The notes under the pieces: model-generated
The model's input: the letters and a program-made list of their open reading frames with translations, nothing else
What the model was told of the DNA's origin: nothing
Databases searched by the model: none
From: a virus
IMG/VR virus record: IMGVR_UViG_3300008450_000258
Span: 1-31,607 of that record
DNA: 31,607 nucleotides
Strand: one strand, 5' to 3'
In this document: positions 246 through 19,978 of the stretch, in pieces
Layout: each line of letters opens with the position of its first letter
Position numbering within the stretch: the first letter of the stretch is position 1
Position numbers and translations under genes: made by a program

Positions 246-748
246 TGCTTTCTCTTCTCTCGACCCTCGGCGGACTTCTGATCTCCGGCCTGCCCAAGCT
301 CCTGGAGTATTTCCAGGACAGGCAGGACAAGGCCCACGAACTGGCGCTCGCGCGCATGCAGGGCGAGATCCAGGCCCAGATGATGCGCGAAGGGTTCCTG
401 GCCCAGCAGCGCGTCGAAGAGATCCGCACCGACCAGGTGGCCATGCAGACCGACGCCCAGATGACCGTGGCGGCCCTGGAGCACGACCAGAAGGTGCTCG
501 ATCGGGCCAGCACCTGGGTGGCCAATTACGTGGGCACAGTGCGGCCGACGGTCACCTACATCTTTGTGCTCGAGCTCGTGGCCATCAACGTCTACATGAT
601 GTATTGGGCGCTGTCTCAGGACAATTTGATCACCAGCATGGACCACATCAAGATTTTTGCCGACGTCATCTTCAGTTCTGACGAGATGGCCATGCTGGGC
701 GGAATCATCGGGTTCTGGTTTGGGTCCCGGAACTGGAACAAAAAGTGA
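245..748 (+). CDS. phage holin, GTA 3TM-type
   Basis: A 167-residue protein with an amphipathic N-terminus (residues 1-23) and a long charged helical stretch (24-90). It has a membrane segment after the RPTVTY signature (about 101-122) and a second one near the C-terminus (about 147-160), ending GFWFGSRNWNKK. The Arg-Pro-Thr segment and the terminal Gly-Phe-Trp-Phe-Gly-x-Arg pattern are typical of the 'holin of 3TMs for gene-transfer release' family. Such holins open the inner membrane so that a cytoplasmic endolysin can reach the peptidoglycan. The stop overlaps the next gene, a lysozyme, by four bases (GTGA), the usual holin-endolysin coupling. Family assignment is from memory of motif and context. 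Confidence 0.82.
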   Translation: MLSLLSTLGGLLISGLPKLLEYFQDRQDKAHELALARMQGEIQAQMMREGFLAQQRVEEIRTDQVAMQTDAQMTVAALEHDQKVLDRASTWVANYVGTVRPTVTYIFVLELVAINVYMMYWALSQDNLITSMDHIKIFADVIFSSDEMAMLGGIIGFWFGSRNWNKK

Positions 749-1248
749 ACCTGAGCAAAGTCGGTGCTACGTTAATGCACCGATACGAAGGTTTCCGCAG
801 TAAGCCGTACCTCTGCCCGGCCCACATCTGGACGATCGGCTACGGCCACGTCCTGTACCAGGATCAGATCCGGCTGCCCATGGTCCGCAAGGAGGGCCGC
901 CCCGGGCTGATCCGCAAAGAGTACCCGCTTAAACCGGAGGACAACCGTGTCTGGACCAAAGAAGAGATCAACCGACTATTCGAAAAAGACGTCGCAGCTT
1001 TTGAACGCGGTGTTCTTCGACTTGTTCCCAGCAGTGCTGGCAGCCAAGGCCGCTTTGACGCTCTTGTCTCTATCTCCTTCAATTTTGGGTTAGGCAACCT
1101 GCAGCGGTCATCGATCCGCATGCGGGCCAACCGGGGCGATCACGAAGGGGCGGCCGAGGCGTTCATGCTTTGGACCAAGGCTGGCGGCCGGGAGCTGCCA
1201 GGGCTGGTCCGGCGCCGGCTGGACGAGAAAAGACTGTATCTGAGCTAG
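745..1248 (+). CDS. endolysin, lysozyme of glycoside hydrolase family 24
   Basis: A 167-residue T4/P22-type lysozyme that would cleave the MurNAc-GlcNAc bond of peptidoglycan. The catalytic signature is visible as Glu15 (RYEGFR), Cys24 (YLCPA) and Thr30 (WTIGYGH), which fits the family pattern E-8aa-(D/C)-5aa-T with Cys replacing the T4-type Asp. The later segment FDALVSISFNFGLGNLQRSS is also typical of GH24. There is no signal peptide or signal-anchor helix at the N-terminus, so release should depend on the holin just upstream. The start is GTG at 745, overlapping the holin stop. Length is normal for the family. Confidence 0.93.
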   Translation: MNLSKVGATLMHRYEGFRSKPYLCPAHIWTIGYGHVLYQDQIRLPMVRKEGRPGLIRKEYPLKPEDNRVWTKEEINRLFEKDVAAFERGVLRLVPSSAGSQGRFDALVSISFNFGLGNLQRSSIRMRANRGDHEGAAEAFMLWTKAGGRELPGLVRRRLDEKRLYLS

Positions 1249-5365: not shown

Positions 5366-8300
5366 ATGGCGTTGGTTCCCGAAGACGATCTCCCAGAAGG
5401 ACTCGCCCCACGCGGGCTTGCGGTACCAGACGACGATCTGCCAGGTGCCCCGACCAAAGAAAAGGGCTTCGTCTCCAACGTCGGCGATCTTCTGGTCGAG
5501 GGCGGCAAGAGCGCGATCGCTTCGGCCCAGGTCTCGCCCGCGGTCATCAGCGGCGAGGGCGTACAGGACAAGGCTGGCCTGATTGCGCAGCAGCTGGCTA
5601 AGCCCCAGACCGATCAGCCCAAAGAACTGCGGGAAGCCAAGGGCGCCTTCAAAGACGAGGGCGAAGCCTGGGAGAAATCCCAAGGATTCCTAGAAGGCGC
5701 TGGCGCTGTCGGCCAGATGCTCTTCGAAGTCGGCCGCCAGGCCGTCACAAACCCCAAGGGCGTGGCCTATATGCTCTCCGAGCAGGCAGCCAACATGGCC
5801 CCCGCCATCGTCGGCATGATCGCCGGCGGCAAGACCGGCGCCATGGTCGGAAGCGTTGCCGGCCCCAAAGGCGCGGCAGTCGGCGGCGTAGCCGGTGCCG
5901 TTGGCGGAGCCTTTACCGGCCAGGCGCCCCTTGAGATCGGCTCTGAATTTATCGGCCTGGTCGGAAAAGAGCTTTCCGCTCGAGGCCTGGAGCCGACCGA
6001 AGCCAACGTCGCCGCTCTATTGCAAGACCCCGAATTCACACAAGGCGCGATCAACGACGCACGCGTTAAAGGCGCCACGACCGCTGGTATTGACGCCGCT
6101 CTTACCGTTGCCTCTGGTGGTATCGCCACCGGCCCCCGGCGTGCAGCACTCAAGACGGCCACCGAAGAGCTCGGCGCAGGCGCCGATGCGGCGCAGATTG
6201 CCAAGCGCGCCGGCGAGATCCTGGACCAGCGCACGCTTGGGCAGAAGGCGACGACTGGCGCCACGGCCGTTGGCGTGGACGTGGCTGGTGGCGGTCTGTC
6301 AGAGGCCGGTGGCCAGCTGGCGGCGTACGGCCAGGTCGACCTGGCAGACGTCGGCTTGGAAATGCTCGGCGAGCTGGGCGGTGCGGCCATCGAAGTGCCG
6401 GCCGCAGGCTATTCCGTCACCCGTGACCAGATCTCACGCCAGCGCCAGGCGCAGGCGCAGCAGCTTTTACAGCAGGCACCCGACGCCGCCACCGCAGCGG
6501 CCGCTGCCAACGAGCTGGCAGGATCAGTGGCTGATCTCGAGGCAGCTGTAAGCCAGTACTTAACACCTGGCGGTGCCATTCCCACGCCCGAGCAGGCAGC
6601 CGCCGCCCCCGCCGGTCCCCGCGAAGACCCGACCCGGGCAATGATCGACCGGCAGGCTGGGCTCATCGCTGAGGCCCAAGCCGCGGGTACGGAATTCGAC
6701 CGGCAGATGGCCCTGGACCAGGCCCAGGCTGCGCTCCCACAGCCCCAGGAAGGGCGCTCTGCTGGGTACGTCGACCTCACCCCCATGAACGACATGCAGG
6801 CGCAGCAGCGCCTGGCAATCCTGCGCGACGAGACCGCTCGGTCAGGTGGTAATGCGCTTGCATTGGCCATCGTTCCGCACCCGGCGCAAGAGGGCCGCTT
6901 TGCCATCGGCACGCAGGCCCTGCCCGATCTCAACCTCCCCACCACGACACCCACAGTCACACCCGATCAGGCCCAATTCCAGATCGAATCCGCTGCCTTG
7001 GGCGGACAGGTTAGCCAGGCTCGCGCTGAGGACAGCGCGACTCGCGGTCCGGTCATTGACCGTGCACTGAAGAACGTCGAAGAGCGGGGCGGGGTGGCTA
7101 CGCCATCCGAGGCGCGGATCTTCCAAGAGGCCGGCATTGGCCAGCCCTACGACCGCGTCGATCCCGCCCTCGAGCCGGGTCCCGCGCCGCTCATCGAGAC
7201 CGCCGGTGCTGCGCGTGAATCGTTCACGCCCAACCAGCAGCTGGCAGATCAAGAGGTCCAGGCCGACCAGGCCGCCCGCCGCCAGGCTGACCTCGCCCAG
7301 CGTGAGCGCACGACCCAGGAGCAGATCACAGCTACCAGCCAGCCGCAGGCTGCACCCGACGCTGGCCAGGTGATCTCTGCCCTGGTCACACCTGGCACGC
7401 AGCGCTCGGCCGAGCAGGTGCGCCTGGTCAATCAGGCCCGCAGCCGCTACAGCCCCCAAGACTTCAGCATCCTCGAGCGCGCCGCCACGGCACCGTTCCA
7501 GCTGGACACGCAAGAGCGGATGCGCTTGCGTGAGCTGCGCAACCCGCCGGCTGTGCCCGAAACGAGCACGATCGTGCCCGAAACAGGCACGGGCCTCATG
7601 GGCACCCGCGTGGCCGCGCGCCTGGGGCAGCCCAGCAATGGCCGCATTGTCACGACCAACGCCAAGTTCTCCACGCAGCGTATAGACGGCAAGATCACGA
7701 TCAACGACAGCGGCACGCAGCACGAGGTCCGTGTCGTCGAGCCAGCCCGCATGGGCACCGAAGGTCGTCTGCTGCAGCAGCTCGCCAGGATCTTCAACAA
7801 GCGCCTGATCGCATTCGAATCTGACACGCTGCAGGTCGACGGCTTTGTGCGCGACGAGGACAACGGGGCGATCTATATCAACGCCAAGGCTTCTGTCTCG
7901 CCGCTGGCCGTGTTCGGCCACGAGCTCACGCATCAGCTCAAGCGCGACAACCCGCAGGCCTACGCTGCCCTGGAGGCCGTCGTTCAGCGCGAGCTGGGCG
8001 AGGGCGCCATGGCGCAGTTCGAGAAGGACTACGGCGAGGGCGCCAATCTGGAGGAAATAACGAGTGACCTAGTCGGCAACCGATTCCAGGAGACCGACTT
8101 CTGGCAGTCGGTGTTTGACGAGATCGCTGCCCAGAATTCAGAGCAGGCCCGCAACATCGTCTACCGCCTGGCCGCTGCAATCACCCGTGCGGTCAACGCA
8201 TTCATGAAGGTCGTACGTCAGCCTGGATTCCAGTCTGACCAGTACGTCAAGGACCTCAACGCCGTGAAGGTGGCGGTGCGCCAGGCCCTGACCACCTACG

Positions 8301-11300
8301 CCCAGCAGCAACGCCCTGCCACCGAGCAGGCTGCAGAGACAACGGCAGAGCCGGCCCAGCCGGCGGCCCGGCCCAGCATGGCCGAGCGGCTGCGTGAGGC
8401 GGCTCGTGCTGCTCGCACAGAGATGGGCGAGACAGTCACGGCAAGTAAGGCACGCCGCGGTGGCGTGGTCGAGCAGGCCGGCGAATTCACGATCCGCACC
8501 CAGAAAGACGGCACGCTGGGCGTCAACGGAGACCCCGAAGCGATCCGTGCTCTGCTGCCCGAGGGCATCGCTGGCCGCGTTGTACCAGGGGGCATGGTCT
8601 TTACCACCGCCGCCGCGCCGCGTGTGCGCGCTGCGCTCGAGGGCCGCAAGCTGGCCTACAGCCGGGCAGGGCAGGTGACCGAAAAGCTGCCCATGAAGGA
8701 CGGCAAGTACGTCGGCGCGCCGGAGAAGTTCAACACCCCGGGCAAGATCACGCAGCTGCGCAAGTGGCTCAACCGCCTGGCCCGCGAAGGCGAGGCCGGC
8801 CGCTACTGGTACGAGAACAGCAGCCGCGAGGTGCTGGCCATGGTCGGCGGCAACGTCACAGAGGCCCGCAAGTTCGTGGCCCTGCTGTCGATTTACTCGC
8901 CCCAGGCGAAGGTCGACGCCAACTCCACGTTTGCCCTGCGCGCATGGGCGCAATACAAGGCCGGCCAGCCGATCAGCGTCAAGACTGGCGTGCAGGACCG
9001 CAAGGCCCAGGAGGCGCTCGACGACGTCGACGCATTCTGGTCCGGCGAGAAGACCGGAAACTTCTTCTTCAACCTGCTGCGTGAGATTGACCCCAGCACG
9101 GCTGGCAAGCAGGGCGCCACGATCGACATGTGGATGATGCGCGCCGGTCAGTACAGCAACGACGCGCCGACTGCCACGCAGTACGCGTTCATGGAGAACG
9201 AAACCAACCGCCTGGCGCAGGAGCTGGGCTGGGAGCCGCAGCAGGTCCAGGCTGCGATCTGGGTAGCGATGAAGGCCCGCATGGAAAACGCGGGCGTGAA
9301 AAAGCGCACCGAGGCGAGCAGCGAAAAGAAGGGCTGGATTCGCTACGAGTACCCGCTCAAGAACGGAAAGCCCCGCAAGACGCGGGTGATTGTCGATGCG
9401 CAGAAGCACCGCGACAACTGGCTCAAGCACGCCTTCGAACACGACCCCACGAAGGACGACACGCAGCAGGCGAAGTTCGACTTCAGCGACGGCTTACGGC
9501 GCCACGTCGGCCAACTGTCCTGGGAGGCCCGCCCTGGCCGTTCGACCAACGTGCTGCCGGGGGTCAATGACGCCCCGTATGAACAGCAGGTCGAGTTCCA
9601 GCAGGCCGTGCAGAAGGCGCTGCTCGATGAGAACGGTATTGACCTGCTGGCCTACAAGCTGGGCATGCTCATCGACGGCCCGGACATCTTGGCGCCAGGT
9701 GTGTGGCAGGGCGAGATTGCCGCCGGCATGCAGAAACTTGTGGCGCTTGCGCCTGCCAAAGGTGATGAAGGCAAGACCAGCATCGACCCGGCGCAGAAGA
9801 AAGCCATTGAGACCTACGCCGCGATGCTGGGGCTGCTGCTGCGCCAGGAGGGGGTGGGTTACCACCGTCCTTTCTACAACTCGGCAAAGAGCGCCAACAA
9901 CGGGGTGGACCTGGTTGTCGGTCGTACCCTGTCTCCGGCCGAGGCACAAAGCCTGTGGGCGGCCATCGACCAGCGCATGCGTGCTGAAGGGGTAGAGAAC
10001 TGGGAGAACAGCGCCGGAATGATCTCGTCGCCCACCGGCATGCGAGTTGTAAATTTCGGTGCCGTAAGTGACAATATCGCTTTCAGAGAATTAGTAAGGG
10101 ACGCTGCCGAAACGCTGGCGATTGATGAGGTAGAGCTGCAGAGCTTTGCGAGCGACGGCGACCTGGTATTTAACGACTGGAAGGAAAGCCCAAATGGCGA
10201 AGATTATCGATCGCGGATACGCGAAGCCTACGGACCCGATCTACTCGAATGGGCCGGAACTGTTCTCGCCCCGCGCGTTCAGGCCGTCTTCAACGAGTTC
10301 AGCTCCCGATACGGCTGGGGAGACCCCGGCCGAGTCGACACCCTCTTCGACCAGCCAGCAGCAGAAGCCGGGCCAGCCCAAGAAGTAACCAGCACCGACC
10401 CCAGCGCCGGCGATCAGAACCTACAGTTCAGCCGGCGCCGCAAGCCTGCACCCAAGAAGACAGTCAAGGCCTACAAGCTCTTCCGCGTCGACGCACGCAA
10501 ACCTGGTCAGCTCTTCCCGCTCTTCGTCAACGCCAACGACCCGGTCGACATCGGTGTCTGGCTGGACGCTGACGAGGGCCCGCTGACCGAGAAGGGCAAA
10601 GTCAAATCGAAGATTGGCGAGCTCGCCTACCGTCCCGGTTGGCATGCTGGCGATGTGCCTATTGCAACGCACATTGGCGGCAAGTCCGACCCGTCTCTGA
10701 CTGCGCCAGACGTCAGGCCCGAGAACCACGTCTGGGCTGAGGTCGAGATGGCCGCCGATCGCGACTGGCAGAAGGAAGCCAACAAGCGTGGCACCAACGC
10801 CCAGGGCAAGCTGATCGCAGGCAAGGCCCACATCACGGACCAGATCCCGACCGACGGCTTCTACCGATACAAGACCAACCCCAACATGACCGGCAACTGG
10901 CTCATTGGTGGGTCAATGAAGGTCAACCGTATCCTGTCGGATACAGAGGTCGAGCGGATCAACGCCGACGCTGGCGTGGAAGACCTGCCGCGTGAGCAGC
11001 CGTTTGACGCGGAGAAGTATGGGTTTGGTAAGGCCAAGCTCAGCCGCCAGCGCACTGGCCCCTTCTACTCGCAGCTGGCCGAGGCCATCGACCAGGTGCC
11101 CGAGCGCCTGGCCACGCAGCCGGCTGCTCAGTGGAAGGCCTGGCTTGCTAGCAATGCAAGCAAGCTCGGGGTCAAGAAGGATGAGCTCGAGTGGTCCGGT
11201 ATCAACGACTACCTGGACCTGCGCGGCAAGGACAAGGTCTCTAAGGACGAGATCGGCGAGTACCTGGACGCCAACAACGTGCAGGTCAAAGACGTGCTCT

Positions 11301-14300
11301 ACGACGACCAGATCGGAGAGAACACCAAGTTTGGTGAGTTCCAGCTGCCGGGTGGTGAGAACTACGCAGAGCTAATGCTGCAGCTGCCCGACTCCGTCAC
11401 CAAAGCCCGCGGCATTTCTGATTACCGCGTGCCGCAGATGCACCGCTACGGCAAACGCGACGCGGACTACAACCGCCTGCTGCACGTTCGCTTCAATGAC
11501 CGCACCGACGCCGACGGCAACCGCGTGCTGTTCATCGAAGAGATTCAATCCGACTGGGCGCAGGAGGGTAGAAAGAGAGGGTTTGCCAAGGCTGGCGATA
11601 AGGCCTACGAAGTGCGGTTAAGCATGAACGGGGCGCGGGTCAACGCCGATGGCCAGGCCGTCTTTGCCACCCGCGAAGAAGCGCAAGAGCTTGCCGATAG
11701 AACGTCTGGCGCTCCGGCTTTCATGAATGCAGAAGTTGTTGAAATCGAAGCGCGCGGCGTATCGCAAGCCCCCTTCGTGCAAGACACCAAAGCCTGGGTC
11801 ACCCTGGCCGTCAAGCGCATGCTGGTCTTTGCCGCAAGAAACGGCTACGACAAGGTGGCGTTCATCAATGGCCAGCAGTCAGCCGACCGGTATGACTTGA
11901 GTAAGCAAGTCGATCGCGTTTCGTACTTCCCGGATTCGCAAATGGTAGTTGCTTACAAAAATGGCCGAATCGCAGCCGAGAAAAAAGTAGCTGACGAAAA
12001 CGAACTAGCTGATGTCATCGGTAAAGACGCTGCGCGCAAAATTCTTGAACAGCCAGTAGAAGAAGTGGTTAACGCCCGCGGCAATCAAGCTCAAAGTTTG
12101 TCCGGCGTCGACCTCAAGGTCGGCGGCGAAGGCATGATCAAGTTCTACGACCAGATCGTGCCCCAGGTCGTCAACGACGTGCTCAAGAAAGTCGGCGGCG
12201 GCAAGCTCGAGCCAACCACCCTGGTCAACCAGGAAGGCGACTTCGACGCCGAGGATCTCGGCAACGCAACGCAGGCAGAGCTCGACCAGCTGGCAGCCGG
12301 CGGCGTGGCGATGATCCAGCCAGGCTTCACCATCACCGACGAGATGCGCGAGAAGGTCGAAGACGGCATGCCGCTCTTTTCCCGCAAGCGCAACTACGGC
12401 ACGCTGACCGCAGCCCAGGAGCAGGCGCTGCGCAACGTCGGCGGCATCGTGCCCACGCAGACCGTCAAGCAGCGCGCCGCAGAGCTCAAGCAGAAGTTCA
12501 GCCGCAGCTGGTTCTCCGGCATCTTCGACCAGTTCGCGCCGCTCAAAGAAGTCGACCAGCGGGCCTACATGCTGGCCCGTCTGTCCAAGGGTTCCGACGG
12601 GGCCCTGGAAGCGCTGATGCTCTACGGCAAACCGTTCATGAACGGCGACGTGCCCGACGTCAATGTCAACGACAAGGGCTTTATCCACGTCATGGCCAGC
12701 CTCAAGGGCGAGCACGACCGCTTCCTCTGGTGGGTGGCCGCGCAGCGGGCCGAGAACCTCAAAGCCCAGGGCCGTGAGAACCTCTTCACCGACCAGGACA
12801 TCAGCTCGCTGAAGTCGCTCAACCAGGGCAACTTCGACGACGGCACGCCAAGGGCCCAGGCCTACGCCAACGCCCTGGTCAAGATGAACGAGTTCAACGA
12901 CGCGGTGCTCGCGATCGCCGAGAAGTCCGGTCTCATCGACAGCGCGGCGCGGCAGCTCTTCAAAGACATGCCCTACGTGCCGTTCTACCGGGTCATGGAA
13001 GACGGCCTCGAGGGGCCGAGCTTTAGCTCCGGCCTGGTCAACCAGCAGGCCTGGAAGAAACTCAAGGGCGGCACGCAGAAACTCAACGAGGACCTGCTCT
13101 CTAACGTCCTGCTCAACTGGGCCCACCTCTTCGATGCGTCTGGTAAGAACCGCGCAGCGGTGGCATCCATGCAGGCCGCAACCCAGATCGGTATCGCGCA
13201 GCCCGTGGCCGCCGGCACCAAGGGTGCGGTCAAGGTCATGGAGCAGGGGCAGACCAAGCACTACACCATCGACGACCCCTACATCATGGAGGCCGTCACC
13301 TCGCTGAACTACCAGGCCCCTGGATTCTTCCAGCCTTTCAGCACGTTTAAGAAGTGGCTCACGATCGGCGTCACCGCCAGCCCGACCTTCAAGATCAAGA
13401 ACCTGATCCGCGACTCCCTGCAGGCCATCGGCACCACGGACCTGAGCTACAACGTGGCCAGCAACGTGATGAAGGGCTTCAAGCTCGGCAGCCAGGACAC
13501 CCAGACCTTCGCATCCATGCTCGCCGGCGGCGGCCTGATCCGCTTCGGCTCCATGCTCGAGGGCACCAGCCGCACGCAGTACCTGATCGAGCGGCAGGGC
13601 GGCATTCTGCTCAACGAAGGCGGCTGGAAAAAACTGCAGCGCCAGATGACCGGCCTGGTCGAGGCCTACGCAGAGGTCGGCGATCGCCTGGAGAACGTCA
13701 ACCGGGCAGCGCTCTACGACCGACTGATCGCCAAGGGCTACAGCCAGGCCGAGGCCAACTTCATGGCCCGCGACCTGATGGACTTCAGCCTGCAGGGCCG
13801 CTGGCCGGTGGTTCGTTTCCTTGCCCAGTCGGTGCCGTTCCTGAATGCCCGACTTCAGGGTCTGAGCAAACTTGGGCGAGGGGCCAAAGAGGACCCCCGA
13901 CGGTTCGGCTATGTGGTCGGCGCCGTGGCGATGGCCAGCATTGCGCTGATGCTCGCCTACGAGGACGACGAAGACTGGAAGAAGCGCCCCGATTGGGACC
14001 GCGACGCCAACTGGTGGTTCAAGATCGGCGACACCGCCTTCCGTATCCCGAAGCCCTTCGAGATTGGCGCCATCGGCACGGTGGCAGAGCGCACCTGGGA
14101 GATGGCGTTTAACCAGGAGATGACCTGGAAGCGCTACCGCGCTCGCCTGAGCCACATGCTCTTCGAGACGTTCGCGATGGACCCCACGCCGCAGCTCATC
14201 GTGCCGATCTCCGAGATCTACGCCAACCGGGAAGGGTTCACCGGCCGCCCGATCGAGGGCATGAGCCTGGAAAAACTGCGCCCCGAAGACCGGGCCACCG

Positions 14301-14875
14301 AGAGCACCTCCAGTGTCGCCCGCATGCTGGGCCAGATGGGGCTACCCAGCCCGGTGTCCCTCGTCAAGGGCAGCTACGAGAAGCTCTCGCCGGTGCAGAT
14401 CGACCACCTCATCCGCGGCTACTTCGGATGGCTAGGCACGACGGCCAGCAACATCGTGGACTTCGGGCTGCGGCCGCTAATGGGTCGTGGCGAGCGGCCT
14501 GAGTACCGCCTGAAAGACGTCTTCGTGGTGGGCAACTTCGCCGAGGGTCTACCCGCAGGCTCGAGCCGCTACGTCGACCAGCTCTATGACCAGGCGCGTA
14601 TCATCGAGCAGGCCTACATGAGCTACCGCGACGCCGTGAAGAAGGGCGATCGGGAGCAGGCCAAAGAACTGCTGGCAGAAGAGGGCGACAAGATCCGCGC
14701 CTACAAGGCGATCAACCGGATCTCGGACCAGGTGTCAGAAATCAACCGCAAAATTCGGCAGATTGAAGCTAGCAAGACCCTGTCTGCAGAGACCAAGCGG
14801 CGGATGATTGACCAGCTGTCTCAGCGCAAGAACGCCATCGCCCAACGCAGCCAGCGGTTCGCTGCGATCGACTGA
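5366..14875 (+). CDS. giant 3169-residue polyvalent virion protein with metallopeptidase motif
   Basis: One uninterrupted 9.5-kb frame starting at an ATG with GGGAG at 5352-5356. Regions in order: V-P-x-D-D-L-P repeats at the N-terminus; a glycine-zipper membrane segment (about 143-200); Gln/Ala-rich helices; a zinc metallopeptidase motif HELTH (852-856) with a possible third ligand Glu896 or Glu897; a helical domain (about 1115-1560); a basic module (about 1688-1880); a conserved EEIQSDW...YDLSKQV...KFYDQIVPQ module (about 1890-2330), frequent in large polyvalent proteins of phages and conjugative elements; and a C-terminal LPD38-like region (about 2650-2960) with KNLIRDSL, PFLNARLQGL and a membrane segment near 2850. 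Short FSR-type motifs mark several junctions. By analogy with Bcep22-like phages it is probably packed in the virion and ejected with the DNA. N4-type RNA polymerase motifs were not seen. Confidence 0.85.
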   Translation: MALVPEDDLPEGLAPRGLAVPDDDLPGAPTKEKGFVSNVGDLLVEGGKSAIASAQVSPAVISGEGVQDKAGLIAQQLAKPQTDQPKELREAKGAFKDEGEAWEKSQGFLEGAGAVGQMLFEVGRQAVTNPKGVAYMLSEQAANMAPAIVGMIAGGKTGAMVGSVAGPKGAAVGGVAGAVGGAFTGQAPLEIGSEFIGLVGKELSARGLEPTEANVAALLQDPEFTQGAINDARVKGATTAGIDAALTVASGGIATGPRRAALKTATEELGAGADAAQIAKRAGEILDQRTLGQKATTGATAVGVDVAGGGLSEAGGQLAAYGQVDLADVGLEMLGELGGAAIEVPAAGYSVTRDQISRQRQAQAQQLLQQAPDAATAAAAANELAGSVADLEAAVSQYLTPGGAIPTPEQAAAAPAGPREDPTRAMIDRQAGLIAEAQAAGTEFDRQMALDQAQAALPQPQEGRSAGYVDLTPMNDMQAQQRLAILRDETARSGGNALALAIVPHPAQEGRFAIGTQALPDLNLPTTTPTVTPDQAQFQIESAALGGQVSQARAEDSATRGPVIDRALKNVEERGGVATPSEARIFQEAGIGQPYDRVDPALEPGPAPLIETAGAARESFTPNQQLADQEVQADQAARRQADLAQRERTTQEQITATSQPQAAPDAGQVISALVTPGTQRSAEQVRLVNQARSRYSPQDFSILERAATAPFQLDTQERMRLRELRNPPAVPETSTIVPETGTGLMGTRVAARLGQPSNGRIVTTNAKFSTQRIDGKITINDSGTQHEVRVVEPARMGTEGRLLQQLARIFNKRLIAFESDTLQVDGFVRDEDNGAIYINAKASVSPLAVFGHELTHQLKRDNPQAYAALEAVVQRELGEGAMAQFEKDYGEGANLEEITSDLVGNRFQETDFWQSVFDEIAAQNSEQARNIVYRLAAAITRAVNAFMKVVRQPGFQSDQYVKDLNAVKVAVRQALTTYAQQQRPATEQAAETTAEPAQPAARPSMAERLREAARAARTEMGETVTASKARRGGVVEQAGEFTIRTQKDGTLGVNGDPEAIRALLPEGIAGRVVPGGMVFTTAAAPRVRAALEGRKLAYSRAGQVTEKLPMKDGKYVGAPEKFNTPGKITQLRKWLNRLAREGEAGRYWYENSSREVLAMVGGNVTEARKFVALLSIYSPQAKVDANSTFALRAWAQYKAGQPISVKTGVQDRKAQEALDDVDAFWSGEKTGNFFFNLLREIDPSTAGKQGATIDMWMMRAGQYSNDAPTATQYAFMENETNRLAQELGWEPQQVQAAIWVAMKARMENAGVKKRTEASSEKKGWIRYEYPLKNGKPRKTRVIVDAQKHRDNWLKHAFEHDPTKDDTQQAKFDFSDGLRRHVGQLSWEARPGRSTNVLPGVNDAPYEQQVEFQQAVQKALLDENGIDLLAYKLGMLIDGPDILAPGVWQGEIAAGMQKLVALAPAKGDEGKTSIDPAQKKAIETYAAMLGLLLRQEGVGYHRPFYNSAKSANNGVDLVVGRTLSPAEAQSLWAAIDQRMRAEGVENWENSAGMISSPTGMRVVNFGAVSDNIAFRELVRDAAETLAIDEVELQSFASDGDLVFNDWKESPNGEDYRSRIREAYGPDLLEWAGTVLAPRVQAVFNEFSSRYGWGDPGRVDTLFDQPAAEAGPAQEVTSTDPSAGDQNLQFSRRRKPAPKKTVKAYKLFRVDARKPGQLFPLFVNANDPVDIGVWLDADEGPLTEKGKVKSKIGELAYRPGWHAGDVPIATHIGGKSDPSLTAPDVRPENHVWAEVEMAADRDWQKEANKRGTNAQGKLIAGKAHITDQIPTDGFYRYKTNPNMTGNWLIGGSMKVNRILSDTEVERINADAGVEDLPREQPFDAEKYGFGKAKLSRQRTGPFYSQLAEAIDQVPERLATQPAAQWKAWLASNASKLGVKKDELEWSGINDYLDLRGKDKVSKDEIGEYLDANNVQVKDVLYDDQIGENTKFGEFQLPGGENYAELMLQLPDSVTKARGISDYRVPQMHRYGKRDADYNRLLHVRFNDRTDADGNRVLFIEEIQSDWAQEGRKRGFAKAGDKAYEVRLSMNGARVNADGQAVFATREEAQELADRTSGAPAFMNAEVVEIEARGVSQAPFVQDTKAWVTLAVKRMLVFAARNGYDKVAFINGQQSADRYDLSKQVDRVSYFPDSQMVVAYKNGRIAAEKKVADENELADVIGKDAARKILEQPVEEVVNARGNQAQSLSGVDLKVGGEGMIKFYDQIVPQVVNDVLKKVGGGKLEPTTLVNQEGDFDAEDLGNATQAELDQLAAGGVAMIQPGFTITDEMREKVEDGMPLFSRKRNYGTLTAAQEQALRNVGGIVPTQTVKQRAAELKQKFSRSWFSGIFDQFAPLKEVDQRAYMLARLSKGSDGALEALMLYGKPFMNGDVPDVNVNDKGFIHVMASLKGEHDRFLWWVAAQRAENLKAQGRENLFTDQDISSLKSLNQGNFDDGTPRAQAYANALVKMNEFNDAVLAIAEKSGLIDSAARQLFKDMPYVPFYRVMEDGLEGPSFSSGLVNQQAWKKLKGGTQKLNEDLLSNVLLNWAHLFDASGKNRAAVASMQAATQIGIAQPVAAGTKGAVKVMEQGQTKHYTIDDPYIMEAVTSLNYQAPGFFQPFSTFKKWLTIGVTASPTFKIKNLIRDSLQAIGTTDLSYNVASNVMKGFKLGSQDTQTFASMLAGGGLIRFGSMLEGTSRTQYLIERQGGILLNEGGWKKLQRQMTGLVEAYAEVGDRLENVNRAALYDRLIAKGYSQAEANFMARDLMDFSLQGRWPVVRFLAQSVPFLNARLQGLSKLGRGAKEDPRRFGYVVGAVAMASIALMLAYEDDEDWKKRPDWDRDANWWFKIGDTAFRIPKPFEIGAIGTVAERTWEMAFNQEMTWKRYRARLSHMLFETFAMDPTPQLIVPISEIYANREGFTGRPIEGMSLEKLRPEDRATESTSSVARMLGQMGLPSPVSLVKGSYEKLSPVQIDHLIRGYFGWLGTTASNIVDFGLRPLMGRGERPEYRLKDVFVVGNFAEGLPAGSSRYVDQLYDQARIIEQAYMSYRDAVKKGDREQAKELLAEEGDKIRAYKAINRISDQVSEINRKIRQIEASKTLSAETKRRMIDQLSQRKNAIAQRSQRFAAID

Positions 14876-15053: not shown

Positions 15054-15085
15054 GTGTGAAGATTCTGTCCATCGGATCTTCACAC
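15054..15085. promoter_or_regulatory. perfect 10-bp inverted repeat upstream of int
   Basis: GTGTGAAGAT (15054-15063) and ATCTTCACAC (15076-15085) are perfect reverse complements separated by 12 bases, ending 24 bases before the integrase ATG. No T run follows, so it is not an intrinsic terminator. It could be a protein-binding operator or an mRNA hairpin that limits integrase expression. Confidence 0.6.
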
Positions 15086-15109
15086 GAGCAACGCCGTACA
15101 GGAGGGAAC

Positions 15110-16129
15110 ATGGCAAGCGTTAAACCGTACAGAGAGGGCTGGCGGGCAGTCATTCGCCGGGTGGGTTACCCGGTCAGATCGAAGATCTTCAAGATCAAGA
15201 AGGACGCCGATGCGTGGGCTCGAGAGATCGAGTCCAGCATGGACAACAACAAGTACCGGGACCTGGCCAAGGCCAAGGAGCACACGGTCGGGGCGCTCTT
15301 CGAGCGCTTCCGAGACGAGGTCTGCCCGCATCGCAAGGGTGCGCGGTGGGACCGGGTCCGAATCAACTTCCTGCTCAAGACCGCAGAGTTCACCAAGCGC
15401 CGGCTGGACCAGCTGCGGTTCGAAGACATCCGCGACTGGCGCGACGCCAGGCTTAAGAAGGTCTCCCCGCCTTCGGTCAACCGTGAGATGAACCTCATCT
15501 CCGGCATCTTCAGCCACGCCATCGAGGAGTGGTCCGCACCCCTGGCCGGCAACCCCGTGCACATGGTCAGCCGACCCAAGGGCTCCGATCGCCAGCGCAA
15601 CCGGCGCTGGTACGACGATGAGCTGCAGGCGGTCCTAGACGCCGCCAAATGGGACGAGAAGGTCAAGCCAAGGACCGGCAAGGAGATGATGCCGTGGGCC
15701 CTCCTGCTGGCCCTAGAGACGGCAATGCGGCCCAGCGAGCTGACCGCGCTCAAGGTCTCAGACTTCCACCCCAAAGAACGCTGCGTGCGGCTAGTCGACA
15801 GCAAGAACGGCGAGGGCAGGGACGTGCCCCTGTCGACCAAGGCCATGCAGTACCTGGCCTTTCTGACAGAAGGGCGGCGCAGCGGCGAGCTGATCTTTAT
15901 CGTGAGCTGGGAAAGCCTGGGCGCCTACTACCGGGACGCCCGCAAGAAGGCCGGCATGGCGGATTCAGATCTGCGGTTCCGGGATCTGCGGCACGAGGCC
16001 ACGACGCGCCTGAGCCGCAAGTTCAGCAACCAGCTGGAGCTGGCTGCCGTGACCGGGCACCGGTCACTGCAGTCCTTGAAGCGCTACTACAACCCCACCG
16101 CGGCCGAGCTGGCCAAGCGGCTGGACTGA
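15110..16129 (+). CDS. int: phage integrase, tyrosine recombinase
   Basis: A 339-residue site-specific recombinase for integration at the attachment site. The N-terminal part (about 1-60) resembles an arm-binding domain; residues about 60-155 form a SAM-like core-binding domain; the catalytic domain follows. Visible residues are Arg207 (AMRPSEL), Arg291-Asp-Leu-Arg294-His295, His317 (TGHRS) and tyrosines 326-327 (LKRYYNP), of which one is the nucleophile. The usual His of the H-x-x-R box is Arg291 here. The ATG at 15110 is preceded by AGGAGGG; an in-frame GTG at 15056 lies in the inverted repeat and lacks such a site. Its 3' end overlaps the convergent HTH gene by 43 bases. Confidence 0.93.
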   Translation: MASVKPYREGWRAVIRRVGYPVRSKIFKIKKDADAWAREIESSMDNNKYRDLAKAKEHTVGALFERFRDEVCPHRKGARWDRVRINFLLKTAEFTKRRLDQLRFEDIRDWRDARLKKVSPPSVNREMNLISGIFSHAIEEWSAPLAGNPVHMVSRPKGSDRQRNRRWYDDELQAVLDAAKWDEKVKPRTGKEMMPWALLLALETAMRPSELTALKVSDFHPKERCVRLVDSKNGEGRDVPLSTKAMQYLAFLTEGRRSGELIFIVSWESLGAYYRDARKKAGMADSDLRFRDLRHEATTRLSRKFSNQLELAAVTGHRSLQSLKRYYNPTAAELAKRLD

Positions 16130-19154: not shown

Positions 19155-19580
19155 ATGGTTCGGTTCAGGAAGGTTGACGCCCGCACACCCAAGATCCGAG
19201 AGCAGCTCCTGAAACTCCAACAGGCCTGCCTGCCTCATGACGACCCGGTCTTCCCAGAGACGGGGCAATGGTGGCTGGGGTACGCGAACCGACAGCCGAT
19301 CGCCTTCTGCCTGGTCAAGCCCTCCAAGTACTGGCTCGACACGGCCTACCTGGCCAGGAGCGGGGTGCTCTTTTTGTGGCGAGGCAAGGGCCTGCAGAAG
19401 CGAATGATCCGAATCCGGGAGCGGCACGCCCGGGCCAGGGGCTACACCTGGATGGTGTCGGACACGACCGAGAACCCGCCCAGCGCCAACAGCCTGGCCC
19501 GCATGGGCTACCAGATGTTTGACCCCAGCATGCCGTGGGGCACCGAGACCAGTCTCTACTGGAGAAAGCGCTTGCGTTAG
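19155..19580 (+). CDS. GNAT family N-acetyltransferase
   Basis: A 141-residue protein with the acetyl-CoA loop RGKGLQKRM (Arg76-Gly-Lys-Gly79-Leu) after a beta strand, then VSDTTENPPSANSLARMGYQMF. The last part has the Asn-Ser-x-x-x-x-x-Gly-Tyr/Phe pattern of the GNAT C-terminal half. It should move an acetyl group from acetyl-CoA to an unknown acceptor. It is the first of two rightward genes inside a leftward block, with its own AT-rich upstream region, so it may be expressed independently (a moron). Substrate cannot be inferred; protein or nucleotide modification and resistance roles all remain open. Confidence 0.82.
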   Translation: MVRFRKVDARTPKIREQLLKLQQACLPHDDPVFPETGQWWLGYANRQPIAFCLVKPSKYWLDTAYLARSGVLFLWRGKGLQKRMIRIRERHARARGYTWMVSDTTENPPSANSLARMGYQMFDPSMPWGTETSLYWRKRLR

Positions 19581-19978
19581 TGCCATTTAAGGACCCCGAG
19601 CAGCGCAGAGCCAGACAAAAGGAATATGCGAAACGCTGGTACGAAAAGAACCGCAAGCAGCACATTGCTACCGCGGTCAAAAACAACCGGGCGCGCCGCG
19701 AGCAGTGGCTCGAATTCAAGGCGCGGCTGAGCTGCACCAAGTGCGGGGCCCGGCACCCAGCGATCATTGACTTCCACCACATCGTTCGCGACGAGACCTA
19801 CCGCTCGGTCTTCAAGCTCGCCGGCGACGGGCGTATTGCCGCGGCCATGGAAGAGACCAAGAAGTGCATCCCGCTTTGCGCGAACTGCCACCGCATCCTT
19901 CACTTCGATGAGGCGACCGAGCGCAAGCGCCGGCGCCGGAAGAAGCGGAAAAAGAAGAAGTCGCACGACGGCCCTTAG
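19580..19978 (+). CDS. HNH endonuclease
   Basis: About 132 residues from the GTG at 19580, which overlaps the GNAT stop (TAGTG). A basic helical N-terminus leads to SCTKCG (Cys52, Cys55), DFHH (His66, His67), then LCANCHRILH (Cys100, Cys103, His104, His108). This is a zinc-finger HNH nuclease with the beta-beta-alpha metal site. The C-terminus is an extreme basic tail (RKRRRRKKRKKKK) that probably binds DNA. It is neither next to a terminase nor inside a visible intron, so a free-standing homing-like or nicking enzyme is possible. The start is uncertain; the frame is open upstream. Confidence 0.82.
   Translation: MPFKDPEQRRARQKEYAKRWYEKNRKQHIATAVKNNRARREQWLEFKARLSCTKCGARHPAIIDFHHIVRDETYRSVFKLAGDGRIAAAMEETKKCIPLCANCHRILHFDEATERKRRRRKKRKKKKSHDGP

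Follow-up and report, generated by a model that had tools for sequence, protein, structure and literature searches.

According to the main text of Iyer et al. 2017 (PMC5512222), a phage polyvalent protein joins a number of unrelated enzyme-like domains in a single chain, with zincin motifs, LPD38 and GNAT domains among them; such proteins lie on the late-gene side of temperate phages, and have been argued to be injected with DNA and possibly processed by their own zincins. Mass spectrometry has detected a DarB-like giant, gp69, in virions of the Bcep22-like phage JC1, a temperate podovirus in which a single giant gene ends the virion module (PMC9144972, sections consulted). Brig1, as described in the consulted part of PMC11078745, is a host-encoded and primarily monofunctional DNA glycosylase of the uracil-DNA-glycosylase superfamily acting in phage-host conflict. 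A further point of reference is provided by the Ogg2/AGOG-type DNA glycosylase/AP lyases (MjOgg, 3knt/3fhf; TmOgg, 3n0u; Pa-AGOG, 1xqo; and 9o00).

The protein described here, of 3169 residues, has the domain mixture and late-gene position of the polyvalent class and differs from the proteins treated in the main text of PMC5512222 by a DNA-glycosylase-like domain. This domain shares a predicted fold and an invariant Lys and Asp with the Ogg2/AGOG-type enzymes, but differs from them in sequence (about 10–15% identity), in a degenerate hairpin, in an insert between Lys and Asp, and in its fusion to an obligate partner domain within a giant phage protein. It shares with Brig1 a possible setting in phage-host conflict, whereas it is phage-encoded and has a predicted HhH fold and a lyase-type lysine. 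JC1 gp69, which was found in virions, is used here as an analogue only. By score the domain belongs to Pfam DUF7178 and PHROG 3842, to which the libraries assign no function and to which we add a placement in the HhH-GPD fold. The polyvalent class is already known, and the glycosylase domain within it appears to be new: the main text of PMC5512222 never uses the word 'glycosylase', gp69 has no glycosylase annotation in the consulted sections of PMC9144972, and PMC7824862, in the parts consulted, contains 'polyvalent protein' and 'glycosylase' in unrelated places only; both terms also occur in PMC7159879. A search largely of non-subscription literature yielded no printed account of a DNA glycosylase within a polyvalent protein, no mention of DUF7178 and, by title or abstract start, no virion-delivered glycosylase.

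The window, meaning the whole stretch of 31,607 nucleotides analysed, is part of the 59,867-bp contig IMGVR_UViG_3300032116_000210, with 2 mismatches in 31,607 bases. The giant gene occupies positions 5366–14875 on the plus strand as an uninterrupted frame with an ATG at 5366 and a stop ending at 14875. Its codon-position G+C of 0.67/0.44/0.80 is gene-like, whereas that of the long antisense frames inside it is not, and the chance of a frame of this length at the stop-triplet frequency of the window is ~10^-29, confirming the 3169-residue gene of the original prediction as a real open frame. Its neighbours are an endolysin gene (745–1248, plus strand) and an integrase gene (15056–16129, plus strand) indicative of a temperate phage, with a DNA polymerase and a primase/helicase farther along and an exonuclease, a gp2.5-like protein and a repressor also among the window proteins. 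Farther upstream the contig carries genes for a portal/head-tail adaptor, for a major head protein and for tail proteins; the head and portal proteins have distant relatives in other phages, including marine phages. The genome is that of a temperate tailed phage. Among cultured relatives is the prophage in Halomonas sp. NO4 (L208). PADLOC matched 0 families and NCBIfam three, none of them near its cut-off. Two plus-strand genes overlap at 19155–19580 and 19535–19978, one for a separate small acetyltransferase and one for an HNH endonuclease, in surroundings that lie mostly on the minus strand.

Membership of the known polyvalent class is supported by the presence of several unrelated functional domains in one chain, namely LPD38, DUF7178, a GNAT fold and an HExxH module. 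The N-terminal 1030 residues had no tblastn match in the phage collection. A glycine-zipper-like GxxxG stretch (residues 145–190; 5798–5935, plus strand) has GxxxGxxxG repeats from residue 150 to ~185, as had been predicted, although the Pfam glycine zipper scored 16.9 against a cut-off of 25. The membrane segments proposed alongside it were only partly borne out, since only residues 2847–2865 (13904–13960) form a hydrophobic segment whose Kyte-Doolittle mean over 19 residues reaches 1.4 or more. The predicted HELTH metallopeptidase motif (852–856; 7919–7933) lies in a zincin-like module at residues 780–1005 (7703–8380, plus strand), and six aligned relatives retain both histidines, the Glu between them, and the downstream E896/E897 and D901 without exception (6/6), as is the pattern in zincins. 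A profile of this module yielded no convincing solved metallopeptidase among PDB sequences, the sole metallopeptidase being MMP-2 at E 1.8. Among the 37 first-found giants, an HExxH motif lies upstream of the glycosylase domain in 28 and downstream in only 4, and is absent outside that domain in 5, two of which are truncated frames (L007, L029).

Following the zincin-like module, a small alpha/beta stretch (residues 1029–1100; 8450–8665, plus strand; AlphaFold pLDDT about 75–95) precedes the glycosylase-like domain. Towards the C-terminus, residues 1897–2342 (11054–12391, plus strand) adopt a GNAT acetyltransferase fold with insertions in a predicted model of residues 1885–3080 (best match 9obo, Z 10.1, 127 aligned, rmsd 3.1); each of the 50 matches listed for this region is titled as an acetyltransferase or GNAT-fold protein or, in some cases, is one that we take to have this fold. 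The consensus contains a GRKxG-like loop, a candidate acetyl-CoA-binding motif. The C-terminal region (PHROG 18222, residues 2347–3162; 12404–14851, plus strand) includes LPD38 at residues 2868–3054 (13967–14527, plus strand), whose Pfam score of 126.8 bits (E 1.4e-36) exceeds the cut-off of 27, in agreement with the LPD38-like end proposed earlier. A 2684-aa 'putative portal' of Achromobacter phage CF418P1 (L246:3556–11610) matches the C-terminus of the giant with its own C-terminus at 39%, and its name looks wrong.

The region of about 1115–1880, which the original prediction could describe but not name, lies within residues ~1109–1889, which comprise at least three modules. Two have library matches, DUF7178 (1134–1304, E 1.2e-12, above cut-off; PHROG 3842 at 1143–1306) and PHROG 30118 (1698–1887), and none of the PHROGs matched along the protein, 18222 included, carries a function in its library. 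Residues 1031–1890 as query against IMG/VR returned 37 loci, one of which (L002) is the same phage as the window. Identity is 44–76% in 32 of the 37 and mostly confined to about 1036–1660, while the flanks fall to 20–41% in some giants and are unalignable in others, apart from two stretches of L001 and module-adjacent ends; the stretch therefore behaves as a portable cassette. Conserved positions in 34 aligned copies (L002 and L029 left out by choice, two loci below the cut-off) fall mostly inside the DUF7178 part. It was from such positions that the glycosylase reading came, ahead of any fold search, and the first motif lead leaned on what we took to be Endo III motifs.

Structure prediction points in the same direction. 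In the AlphaFold model of residues 1010–1890, residues 1109–1309 are confidently modelled (block pLDDT 76–98, mostly at least 87) and all-helical. VIA-align listed 50 matches, of which 17 lie near residues 1507–1596 (small, ferredoxin-like proteins) and 33 over 1109–1322. Of the latter, 32 carry the names of DNA glycosylases with the OGG/AGOG/EndoIII/MutY fold, and the remaining match is a 'conserved hypothetical' structural-genomics entry (1xg7), presumably AGOG; the uracil-DNA-glycosylase superfamily was not represented among the 50 listed. The best match is MjOgg 3knt, with 161 of 206 residues aligned at rmsd 3.4 and a Z of 10.8, below the 13 that helical models may reach by arrangement alone according to the tool's own warning; TmOgg (Z 10.5) and Pa-AGOG (Z 9.7) are further matches. 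The HhH-GPD fold is thus seen on a predicted model as opposed to an experimental structure. Foldseek alone, with the whole model against the PDB, returned nothing at E < 0.001 and listed chiefly efflux pumps and small ferredoxin-like proteins, matched at low probability. We relied on VIA-align and sequence profiles because an 881-residue, partly disordered model swamps single domains in Foldseek, and absence from a fold listing was not treated as proof of absence. Against viral models Foldseek gave 20 matches below E 0.001, most of them to uncharacterised phage proteins; farther down the ranking, at E 0.047, stood Endonuclease III of Halogranum tailed virus 1.

Searches of all PDB sequences (threshold E up to 10) with three DUF7178 profiles found Ogg glycosylase/lyases in four of four matches for profile A4 (best E 0.041), three of three for A6 (best E 0.014) and three of five for A9 (best E 0.052), where designed proteins made up the other two. 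Every natural PDB protein recovered is thus an Ogg glycosylase/lyase, at weak E-values of which even 0.014 is non-significant alone; the three profiles share sequences, and three of the PDB matches are almost identical variants of a single protein. With a profile of the entire 1010–1683 module there were three weak PDB matches, 0 of them glycosylases. Since hhalign of DUF7178 against an Nth/MutY profile was non-significant (probability 0.7%), we do not claim closeness to Endo III, and since 0 of 18 family members match Pfam HhH-GPD (PF00730) at E up to 10, we keep DUF7178 as its own family on the same fold. A DNA-level search for the domain in phages at E up to 10 gave only noise.

Further evidence comes from residues expected in an active site. 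A set of 83 domains was collected from 66 of the 69 matches in 76 partner-search loci (three too short were dropped), the window and 16 sequences of alignment A6, and 72 of these were distinct. K1229 (9050–9052) and D1254 (9125–9127) are invariant in all 72, and only S1178, F1233 and W1299 join them as fully invariant columns. In glycosylase/lyases of this fold the Asp is catalytic and the Lys serves as the lyase residue, and both are present in the sequences of all 72. The canonical G-x-G hairpin of the HhH motif is not retained, the window having SGE and one glycine being kept in 63 of 72. The short relative prophiGD54-2 gp151 has 18 residues separating Lys and Asp, as does the displayed part of 9o00, and the window protein has a seven-residue insert in this interval. 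The dN/dS of the domain is about 0.02–0.20 in nine codon-aligned pairs, some with saturated dS, and its dN is the lowest among the cassette's three parts in 8 of 9 pairs. Taken together, residues 1109–1312 (8690–9301, plus strand) look like a domain with the predicted fold and catalytic Lys/Asp of OGG-type DNA glycosylase/AP lyases. The original prediction had regarded the unassigned middle as a good place for new activity, and this predicted domain agrees with it; the case it had set against itself, in which every module matches a known fold lacking enzymatic residues, does not hold for a domain with this Lys/Asp pair.

The glycosylase-like domain and the adjoining partner domain (residues 1313–1660; 9302–10345, plus strand) form one unit, judging from their co-occurrence in sequence. 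Residues 1313–1660 alone retrieved 76 loci, many from contigs already found, and the glycosylase domain lies directly upstream in the same frame in 66 of the 67 that have at least 230 residues of that frame upstream, the exception being L315 (E-values computed on 76 sequences only). Proteins of ~700 residues from L311, L312, L314, L301 and L307 comprise little beyond this pair. The partner is modelled at low confidence, with a weak ferredoxin-like portion near 1507–1596. A relationship to 2fyh/PH0099 was considered at E 0.066 and 0.15 and dropped when a larger profile gave 0.38 (2fyh alone). Among 16 scanned cassette-bearing giants, ART-PolyVal and LPD38 each occur in 6, MuF_C in 2, and inorganic pyrophosphatase, Zeta_toxin, LPD22 and LPD37 in one each.

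Stand-alone DUF7178 relatives of ~200 aa also exist, and depositors have named them 'glycosylase' (Triumph, Cece), 'N-glycosylase/DNA lyase' (prophiGD54-2), hypothetical, endonuclease or, seemingly wrongly, portal protein. One of the latter, Tunturiibacter phage Tunturi_3 gp111 (L230:5902–6495), is a stand-alone DUF7178 glycosylase-like protein annotated 'portal protein' and encoded directly downstream of a gene annotated as an ATP-dependent DNA ligase. In Microbacterium phage Cece an SprT-like protease gene lies three genes upstream of the DUF7178 'glycosylase' (L206:128–589 and 1426–2049), a hint of a DNA repair context. Roseobacter phage CRP-901 gp68 (L233:5029–6399), which lies in a structural region and contains GHKT and DLH motifs, may be a more distant relative, its match being short and weak.

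The third module, residues 1696–1889 (10451–11032, plus strand; PHROG 30118), is strongly conserved, at 43–81% identity to the window copy in 24 aligned relatives chosen from 191 matching IMG/VR stretches, of which 80 were kept. It has a confident, beta-rich model and a motif, GWHAGD...YRYKTNPNMTGNW, that is conserved across IMG/VR phages, and it has neither a Pfam match nor a convincing PDB profile match. In Roseobacter phage CRP-212 the match lies inside a 1203-residue protein with the portal on one side and the coat on the other. The module is perhaps an enzyme or a head-morphogenesis domain.

We posit, at a probability of roughly 60%, that the giant belongs to the polyvalent proteins and carries a divergent OGG-type DNA glycosylase/AP lyase cassette that is delivered with the genome and acts on DNA at entry. 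The giant protein of this temperate tailed phage would most likely be packaged and delivered with its genome, and action at entry is suggested by analogy with injected polyvalent proteins and with the virion giant of JC1. In the two-domain cassette in the middle of the protein (residues 1109–1312 and 1313–1660), the first domain, if it works as OGG enzymes do, would flip a damaged or modified purine out of DNA and remove the base with Lys1229 as nucleophile and Asp1254 as its partner, after which beta-elimination would nick the strand. Given its obligate linkage, the partner domain probably binds DNA or shapes specificity, and the zincin module just upstream may, as has been argued for its class, cut the cassette free. 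Its action on DNA would fall within the first minutes of infection.

Should the enzyme be active, it has not quite an even chance of serving to process or repair the phage's own DNA as it enters, and a lesser chance of attacking modified bases in the DNA of the host or of a rival; we keep both readings, with repair slightly ahead. The clean-up of the phage genome is favoured because the closest folds are repair enzymes, while no pocket residue of the predicted domain could be tied to 8-oxoguanine; a conflict role is favoured because of the domains that accompany the cassette. Repair of the phage's own DNA therefore fits at least as well as the anti-host role that had been suggested for such modules. 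In its strongest form, which we regard as tentative, the conflict role would make DUF7178 and its partner a dedicated DNA glycosylase/AP lyase cassette, injected within polyvalent proteins as an invasion weapon that removes modified purines from host or competing-phage DNA and leaves nicks, mirroring Brig1 and matching, on the attacking side, what glycosylases do in defence; the zincin upstream would free it or remove crosslinks between DNA and protein. The cassette does sit in injection-type proteins with effector-like domains (ART-PolyVal in 6/16, Zeta_toxin in 1/16, GNAT in the window protein), its conservation in 32 of 37 loci far exceeds that of its flanks, and the consulted part of PMC11078745 shows with Brig1 that a glycosylase is able to decide phage-host conflict. 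Against it stand the nearest folds, which are repair enzymes for oxidised guanine, the existence of stand-alone relatives of about 200 aa, and the want of a known modified target.

The remaining explanations deny the domain this chemistry. The HhH fold is also used as a DNA-binding platform, and a catalytically dead domain could tether the protein to the entering genome, in line with the nucleic-acid-binding domains that PMC5512222 reports in the polyvalent class; an active-site Lys and Asp invariant in 72 of 72 domains, with only five columns fully invariant, make this unlikely. Less probable still is a base-modifying enzyme that alters phage DNA instead of excising bases. Related scaffolds occur in hypermodifying phages (compare the thymine-pyrophosphorylase or hydroxymethyluridine-kinase families), but the Lys/Asp pair is the signature of glycosylase-lyases, and no DNA-hypermodification gene was seen among the scanned window proteins and eight scanned upstream proteins, a subset of the genes. 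We consider it just as improbable that a small helical domain resembles the fold by chance and that the module does something else, as the lack of a significant Foldseek match in the PDB and the non-significant hhalign to Nth/MutY might suggest, since the predicted structure, the sequence profiles, the residues of the active site and the names that depositors gave to relatives all agree.

The reading of the domain as a glycosylase/AP lyase gives a Pfam family of unknown function a likely activity that can be assayed directly, and widens the possible cargo of polyvalent proteins by base excision. If the enzyme is active, the phage would carry either a repair kit delivered with its genome or an entry weapon against modified DNA, and neither would have a precedent among virion-delivered proteins in the literature searched.
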